From contig NZ_LR597503.1 of assembly GCF_902150035.1 (NCBI RefSeq), positions 62,001-126,000 on the forward strand: DNA of 64,000 nt. The letters are read 5' to 3'. The position numbers and the translations under genes are program-made. This document shows, piece by piece, positions 19,245 through 20,408 of this stretch. Each line of letters opens with the position of its first letter. Position 1 is the stretch's first letter. This DNA comes from Enorma burkinafasonensis (lineage in GTDB: Bacteria > Actinomycetota > Coriobacteriia > Coriobacteriales > Coriobacteriaceae). Below the pieces are notes generated by a model. It searched no databases and was not told the origin of the DNA. It saw only the letters and a program-made list of their open reading frames with translations.

Positions 19245-20177
19245 TCAACGACGCTTTTCGGCAGCACGCACCTCACGTATGACGCGTTCCATGGTCTCGT
19301 TGACGCGGTCGCGCTTGAGCTCGCACTCCCAGATGGTGATCGCGGTCCAGCCCTGCTCGGCGAGCTCGGCGAGGGCGCGGGCGTCGCGCTCGACGTTGCG
19401 GCGGAACTTCGCCTCCCAGAACTCCGTGTTGCGCTTGGGCGTCGAGGGGTGGCAGTGCGGGCAGCGGTGCCAGAAGCAGCCGTTCACGAAGATGGCGACC
19501 TTGCGGCCGGGGAAGGCGATGTCGGGGCGACCGGGCGCCTTCTTCCACTGCAGGCGGTAGCCCGTGAGGCCCGCAGCGCGCAGGCGCTGCCGCACGAGAA
19601 GCTCCGGCTTGGTGTCCGCGCGCTTGTTGCCCTGCATGGACTTGCGGATGGCGGCGCGGCGGCGCACCAGCTCGGTCTCGTCGGCCGAGAGGTCGGCGGT
19701 GTCGATCTTCTCCAGGAGTTTTGACCTTTTGCGGCCCGCTGCCGGCTGCCCGTCCTCGGCATCCGCCCCATCGGCGGGAGAGGCCGCGGCGAGCGCGCGG
19801 ACCAGCTCGATGTCGGCGGGCATCCACGTGAGCTTGGCGAGCGAGGCGCGCTCGACCCAGCGGAGCTCGAGCTGCCGGTCGGAGCGCCGGGGCTCGTCGC
19901 CCTCGGCGATGCGGCAGAGGAAGCATTCCATGGAGAGGTGGAAGTCCTCGTAGTCGTACTCCACCGTGTAGAAGTCGCGCAGGTCGCAGATGCGCACCTG
20001 CAGTTCCTCGGCGAGCTCGCGCCGGCAGGCGTCGCGGGCGGTCTCGCCGCGCTCCACCTTGCCGCCGGGGAACTCCCAGAGGCCTGCCATCTCGCCGTAG
20101 CCGCGCTGGACGGCGAGCACGCGGTCGGATCCGTCGCCCGCCTTGATGATGCCGGCTGCCACGTGAACCGTACGCAT
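19245..20177 (-). CDS. Nudix hydrolase fused to Vsr-type endonuclease
   Basis: 310 aa in one uninterrupted frame. Residues 1-130 are a MutT/CTP-pyrophosphohydrolase-like Nudix domain with a full Nudix box at 38-60 (GGKVERGET to REL-x-EEL). A 40-residue charged linker follows. Residues 172-310 are a very-short-patch repair endonuclease: GRPDI with the catalytic Asp219, GCFWHRCPHC (Cys234, His237), TEFWEAKFRRNVERD and IWEC (Cys285). Vsr nicks T:G mismatches from deaminated 5-methylcytosine; MutT-type Nudix proteins cleanse oxidised nucleotides. No cytosine methyltransferase is in the window. Start ATG at 20177 has GAGGAGGG upstream. Confidence 0.85.
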   Translation of the reverse strand: MRTVHVAAGIIKAGDGSDRVLAVQRGYGEMAGLWEFPGGKVERGETARDACRRELAEELQVRICDLRDFYTVEYDYEDFHLSMECFLCRIAEGDEPRRSDRQLELRWVERASLAKLTWMPADIELVRALAAASPADGADAEDGQPAAGRKRSKLLEKIDTADLSADETELVRRRAAIRKSMQGNKRADTKPELLVRQRLRAAGLTGYRLQWKKAPGRPDIAFPGRKVAIFVNGCFWHRCPHCHPSTPKRNTEFWEAKFRRNVERDARALAELAEQGWTAITIWECELKRDRVNETMERVIREVRAAEKRR

Positions 20178-20408
20178 GGGCCCTCCTCTCGCCTGTACCG
20201 CGCGCCGTCGTTTCACGACAAGCAAGCATATCAGATCGCGCACCTTACGAATTTGCAAGCCAACTGTAAGCCAAATCGATGGCTGCCCGCGGCCCGTCTT
20301 GCGACGATAGGGTTGCGAGCGGTGCGGCGTCCCCGACCGCGTCCGTCCACGCCCCGGCCGCACCCGCTCGCGCACGAGGTAAGCTAGGGCACAGGGAAAG
20401 GACCTAAG

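Follow-up and report, generated by a model that had tools for sequence, protein, structure and literature searches.

Why are a nucleotide hydrolase and a DNA mismatch endonuclease built as one protein? This question is raised by a gene on the minus strand of the window, the whole stretch of 64,000 nucleotides of DNA from the gut bacterium Enorma burkinafasonensis that we analyzed. An earlier note on this DNA had read a Nudix hydrolase and a Vsr endonuclease in one frame, and this reading is upheld: a single unbroken open reading frame runs from an ATG at position 20177 to a stop codon at 19245, and each domain of the 310-residue product has significant profile matches, with Pfam placing NUDIX (PF00293, 6e-19) at residues 5–128 and Vsr (PF03852, 8e-20) at residues 178–238. 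In an AlphaFold2 model of the protein (mean pLDDT 85.6, pTM 0.62), both domains are predicted confidently and residues 135–148 score below 50, as expected of two tethered enzymes. The features of the gene are collected in Table 1.

Table 1. Features of the Nudix–Vsr gene (positions in the window; residues of the encoded protein)
Feature	Position	Strand	Basis or remark
Nudix–Vsr fusion gene, 310 aa	19245..20177	(-)	One ORF; Pfam and NCBIfam matches for both domains
Shine-Dalgarno-like AGGAGG, 5' of the ATG	20182..20187	(-)	Read from sequence
Nudix hydrolase domain, residues 1–131	19785..20177	(-)	PF00293, 6e-19; pLDDT ~87–96; Foldseek
Nudix box, residues 38–61 (catalytic G38, E45, R53, E54, E57, E58)	19995..20066	(-)	Invariant in 53 distinct fusions
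W118-M-P-A-D122 base-recognition motif	19812..19826	(-)	Asp at the MutT Asn119 position; compare NudG, MutT2
Low-complexity linker, residues 132–172	19662..19784	(-)	Predicted disorder at 135–148, pLDDT <50
Vsr endonuclease domain, residues 173–308	19254..19661	(-)	TIGR00632, 114 bits; phmmer to 1cw0, 1.4e-21
Catalytic Asp219 (= E. coli Asp51)	19521..19523	(-)	Invariant in 213 Vsr domains compared
F230-V-N232-G-C234-F235-W236-H237-R-C239-P-H-C242-H (catalytic His237, intercalating Phe235/Trp236, zinc cysteines)	19449..19490	(-)	Alignment to E. coli Vsr
Cys285, fourth zinc ligand (= E. coli Cys117)	19323..19325	(-)	53/53 fusions

A frameshift at the linker, or an assembly artefact, can be ruled out, since 60 of 65 Coriobacteriaceae genomes, from five genera, carry both domains in the same in-frame arrangement; the suggestion that most relatives might keep the two as separate genes fails on the same count. 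The fusion occurs in all five genomes of the window's genus, in 42 of the 43 of the genus with named Collinsella records and in every genome of three other genera. In the four genomes of another genus Vsr stands alone, two of them also encoding a similar Nudix elsewhere as its own gene, and no Vsr was found in one small genome of the Collinsella genus (G029). Across 69 loci (some genomes represented twice) every fusion is in frame, joined by linkers of 8–116 residues in which Ala, Asp, Lys, Arg and Glu abound. Comparison of 22 close relatives gave a dN/dS of 0.035–0.042 for the Nudix domain, 0.028–0.045 for the Vsr domain and 0.18–0.20 for the linker; both domains are under purifying selection. 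A neighbouring ABC-transporter gene adjoins the fusion at 58 of the 69 loci, which marks it as a chromosomal gene of largely conserved position. One genome from another family of the order (G284, contig C26, 29.7 kb) holds a fusion 70–76% identical to the window's, reflecting either misbinning or transfer. The fusion had also been called unusual, which stands in so far as the literature is concerned but not as regards its frequency: both component families are known, and neither the fusion, its near-universality in the family nor the pairing in a second phylum described below was found in the open-access literature searched, but in Coriobacteriaceae it is the norm rather than a one-off.

The Vsr half passes the cut-offs of both of its family models (TIGR00632, 114.4 bits against 97.85; PF03852, 70.9 bits against 27), and phmmer matches it to the E. 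coli Vsr structure 1cw0. In the alignment to the E. coli enzyme, Glu192, Asp219, His237 and Asp265 correspond to Glu25, Asp51, His69 and Asp97, and the zinc site consists of Cys234, Cys239 (in the place of His71), Cys242 and Cys285. The catalytic set, previously described as complete, is thus intact in Asp219, His237 and the zinc site but not at the position of E. coli His64, occupied by Asn232; among the other Vsr homologs compared, Asn is again what most often stands there. E. coli Vsr cuts mismatches of T or U opposite G, and from the intact active site we predict T:G nicking for this domain as well.

The Nudix half carries the pattern G38x5E45x7R53E54xxE57E58. Here too the claim of completeness holds for the metal-binding and catalytic Arg and Glu residues, which are all present, but not for the terminal Gly, which is replaced by Gln60. 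Across the fusions compared, the catalytic residues of either domain vary hardly or not at all. Two further residues bear on the substrate: Trp118, found in 53 of 53 fusions, and Asp122, found in 51 of 53, each also aligned in 13 of 14 Vsr-linked Nudix domains. Among solved structures, 3r03, 4v14 and 3hhj match the sequence slightly better than 3GWY, which ranks fourth at ~32% identity, an order too close to decide the matter; Foldseek places 3r03 first, then MutT2 complexes, among them one with 5m-dCTP (5zro), with MutT lower and the differences small. As 3GWY is only fourth, and Arg72 and Arg77 of NudG are not conserved, the substrate was assigned through the subfamily motif and not through close identity. 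3GWY hydrolyzes 5-Me-CTP, 5-Me-dCTP and 5-hydroxymethyl-dCTP, with a kcat/Km of 4.8e6 on 5-Me-dCTP and a value ~50-fold lower on 5-OH-dCTP (PMC5158307), and E. coli Orf135/NudG and mycobacterial MutT2 act on 5-methyl-dCTP (PMC10742078). With moderate confidence, the sequence thus points to a 5-substituted dCTP as substrate, of the NudG/MutT2/3GWY type with Asp at the Asn119 position, and not to 8-oxo-dGTP.

Taking the two halves together, we propose a two-stage guard against C-to-T mutation derived from cytosine, an account to which we give about an even chance of being right. In the first stage, the N-terminal Nudix domain would hydrolyze 5-substituted cytidine triphosphates, chiefly 5-methyl-dCTP, to the monophosphate and so keep them out of DNA. 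In the second, the C-terminal Vsr domain would nick the T-containing strand at T:G mismatches, arising from deaminated 5-methylcytosine or from replication errors, after which the patch would be resynthesized. The flexible linker would make these two independent enzymes in one polypeptide and not one joint active site. For each half the activity and its substrate are inferred here, as is the role in the cell, and the two halves plausibly act against this same hazard, one in the nucleotide pool and the other in DNA.

The pairing recurs in a second phylum. Since a query with both domains is biased toward linked loci, linkage was measured with a Vsr-only family search in Bacteroidaceae. A Nudix gene lay within 1.5 kb at 7 of 70 loci, always co-directional, against ~0.5 expected (from 65 Nudix genes per 15 genomes and 326 kb read); six of these neighbours belong to the 3GWY-like subfamily and the seventh, at locus L201, to a more distant Nudix type. 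Mapping over the same 399 genomes placed a 3GWY-like Nudix no more than 2 kb from Vsr in 15 genomes (14 of these pairs co-directional; 0.12 expected); at 4 kb the count was 19 (18 co-directional; 0.25 expected). These are Poisson expectations that assume independence and ignore relatedness. The pairs occur in both gene orders. Scored by presence and absence, the Nudix subfamily shows a weak co-occurrence with Vsr (Fisher p of 0.04 at E 1e-35 and of 0.22 at E 1e-15), and the association is strong in physical proximity only.

A separate, direct fusion with a linker of about one residue is found in a Prevotella MAG (L057:5001-5921), between a helix-hairpin-helix protein and TatC; that genome gave no C5-methyltransferase match. 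In a tree of Vsr domains, the fusions of Coriobacteriaceae group in a single clade (SH-aLRT 93), set apart from all Bacteroidales copies by a fully supported branch, and within Bacteroidales the linkage label requires at least five changes on starred branches, gains and losses together. Transfer of the Coriobacteriaceae fusion from Bacteroidales is unsupported, as its Vsr clusters with those of other Coriobacteriales. Some Nudix-linked Bacteroidales Vsr proteins (L042:5391-6020, L064, L102, L200) carry a variable insertion of ~15–45 residues directly after the catalytic FVNGCFWHGH motif. One Bacteroidaceae operon (L226:1890-5700) encodes, in a single direction, a C5-methyltransferase, an EcoRII-type restriction enzyme, Vsr and a 3GWY-like Nudix, and another linked operon has a C5-methyltransferase downstream. 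Proximity in this family may be due in part to both genes residing in the same restriction or defence islands.

These results bear on a competing account, which sees in the Nudix half an ordinary MutT acting on 8-oxo-dGTP and in the fusion merely a means of expressing two unrelated anti-mutators jointly, with no shared substrate logic. Gene fusions often do no more than ensure co-expression, the MutT model TIGR00586 scores 73.2 bits on the window's domain, and the MutT structures 4v14 and 3hhj score about as well as 3GWY. That score, however, lies under the model's cut-off of 97.9, and Asp122 takes the place of the MutT Asn119 in nearly all fusions. Moreover, the 13 linked Nudix proteins examined from Bacteroidales all fall in one 3GWY-like subfamily, despite about four Nudix genes per genome there, and the nearest solved relative of the one tested from Bacteroidaceae is 3GWY itself (2e-28). 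We consider an ordinary MutT unlikely, if a serious contender.

If the fusion guards against cytosine-derived mutation, where is the methyltransferase that Vsr usually accompanies? The earlier note was correct that no Dcm gene is nearby: the window holds none. The sole C5-methyltransferase locus of the genome lies on a different contig and is frame-broken at a run of nine G (L257:1793; G000:C32, ~18592), and nine relatives (L260-L267, L269) have runs of 7–13 G at the corresponding site. The run looks like possible phase variation, with homopolymer sequencing errors in single assemblies as the alternative. The neighbour of the broken gene (L257:2039-3700) encodes a large protein that contains a DGQQR motif and looks like a DUF262-type, GmrSD-like restriction protein. 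No C5-methyltransferase family match was obtained in 20 of the 65 Coriobacteriaceae genomes, among them the single-contig G006, and all twenty have Vsr. Selection on the gene is likewise similar in relatives with and without the enzyme, dN/dS being alike in 14 and 8 genomes, respectively. That Vsr is retained solely for a resident Dcm is thereby ruled out. Where no C5-methyltransferase is detected, the source of 5-methyl-dCTP is a weak point of the proposal, and salvage of foreign DNA is our guess.

E. coli Vsr is stimulated by MutL. Stimulation by MutL has also been reported for Neisseria Vsr, and one gonococcal Vsr recognizes T:G in all nucleotide contexts (PMC6116569). Set against Dcm–Vsr very short patch repair, the present locus has no cognate C5-methyltransferase and its host no MutL; the lack of MutL weighs against our proposal. 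Since Vsr is kept without either, it probably acts on T:G in a relaxed context, with the gonococcal enzyme as a precedent, and does not serve one particular methyltransferase.

The lack of MutL extends through the order: it was found in none of the 65 Coriobacteriaceae and none of the 297 Coriobacteriales genomes, by a search that was positive in 11 of 14 controls. The MutS N-terminal domain (MutS_I) was found in one of the 65 family genomes; the sole such case consists of two matches in one 3249-residue open reading frame (G010:C11:111334-113181). Sixteen family genomes gave weak, partial-domain matches to NucS, and the two examined are UPF0102 proteins. With MutL absent and the examined NucS matches so explained, Vsr is the only mismatch endonuclease recognized in the order, where 221 of 297 genomes encode it (200 of 245 good ones). 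At the sister-family loci read, Vsr mostly stands alone, with no C5-methyltransferase detected in the flanks; the profile used for these neighbourhoods was narrow, built from few sequences, and counts of nearby methyltransferases are accordingly lower bounds. All Coriobacteriia analyzed by Castaneda-Garcia in 2017 were likewise without NucS and MutS-MutL, and further mismatch-repair pathways could not be discarded (PMC5290159).

This background lends some force to the view that the Vsr half is simply a stand-in for the missing mismatch repair, acting on any T:G and perhaps on other mismatches, with methylcytosine irrelevant and the Nudix half incidental. But Vsr is limited to T or U opposite G and could cover only part of mismatch repair; if the T were always removed, roughly half of the T:G errors of replication would be repaired the wrong way; and repeated pairing with one Nudix subfamily is left unexplained. 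We therefore rate this view as quite improbable. Being family-wide in a group where searches turned up no known system of general mismatch repair, the fusion is nevertheless a candidate for part of the missing repair. A bolder version, which we advance only tentatively, is that the fusion, with the free-standing Vsr of sister families, forms a core part of mismatch repair in Coriobacteriia: a context-relaxed T:G endonuclease joined to a 5-methyl-dCTP cleanser, operating without MutS, MutL, NucS or a resident Dcm.

Could the Nudix half instead serve against phages, by depleting, alongside restriction genes, the 5-hydroxymethyl- or 5-methyl-dCTP on which phages with modified cytosine depend? 3GWY does hydrolyze 5-hydroxymethyl-dCTP (PMC5158307), some Bacteroidaceae copies sit in restriction operons, and the window protein matches the PADLOC candidate PDC-S07, a MutT-like Nudix (2e-38), which in Streptococcus suis accompanies type IV restriction in 23 of 23 cases (PMC12813430). 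However, E. coli MutT and NudG match PDC-S07 equally well, which makes the match unspecific and weak as evidence of defence, and the Coriobacteriaceae gene is near-universal at a largely conserved chromosomal place, unlike mobile defence genes; we think an anti-phage role very unlikely. Finally, a non-hydrolytic Nudix that reads lesions or mismatches for the Vsr nickase, as the C-terminal domain of MutY does for its glycosylase, would suit the match to PF14815 NUDIX_4 (64 bits, cut-off 35), the family of that MutY domain, but it is barely credible given invariant metal-binding residues in the Nudix box, a linker of variable length and predicted disorder, and the usual encoding of the same kind of Nudix as a separate gene in Bacteroidaceae.

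The two-stage guard remains our preferred reading. A Vsr present across an order, and in one family fused to a pool enzyme, offers a concrete gene for the question of mismatch repair in Coriobacteriia, and the repeated association of Vsr with a single Nudix subfamily, seen in two phyla, suggests that 5-methylcytosine may be kept in check both among free nucleotides and in DNA, an arrangement for which we found no description in the open-access literature searched.

How does the protein compare with known systems? NucS/EndoMS, of non-canonical mismatch repair, is likewise a mismatch endonuclease of Actinobacteria without MutSL, but it belongs to a different family and was not found in the Coriobacteriaceae genomes searched. 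Caulobacter VsrA resembles the present case in being a Vsr-like gene unlinked to its methyltransferase, ScmA; by contrast, ScmA is present in that genome, and VsrA has a DUF559 domain with no Nudix reported (PMC12907096). To E. coli Vsr (1cw0; TIGR00632), the enzyme of very short patch repair, the C-terminal half is alike in sequence, in the catalytic Asp, His and Glu, in the intercalating Phe-Trp and in the zinc cysteines, and it differs in being fused to a Nudix domain, in lying away from any dcm, in carrying Asn at the His64 and Cys at the His71 position, and in a host without MutL. The N-terminal half shares with the 5-methyl-(d)CTP pyrophosphohydrolase of Bacteroides fragilis (Q5LBB1, 3GWY) the motifs Tyr-x-x-Phe-x-x-x-Met-x-x-Phe-Leu-Cys and Trp...Ala-Asp, whereas 3GWY is a single-domain protein and the window's domain bears a likeness to MutT-type structures as well. 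NudG/Orf135 of E. coli and MutT2 of mycobacteria are single-domain proteins too, and differ, in the case of NudG, by the two arginines that the fusion does not conserve, but like it they have Asp where MutT has Asn119.
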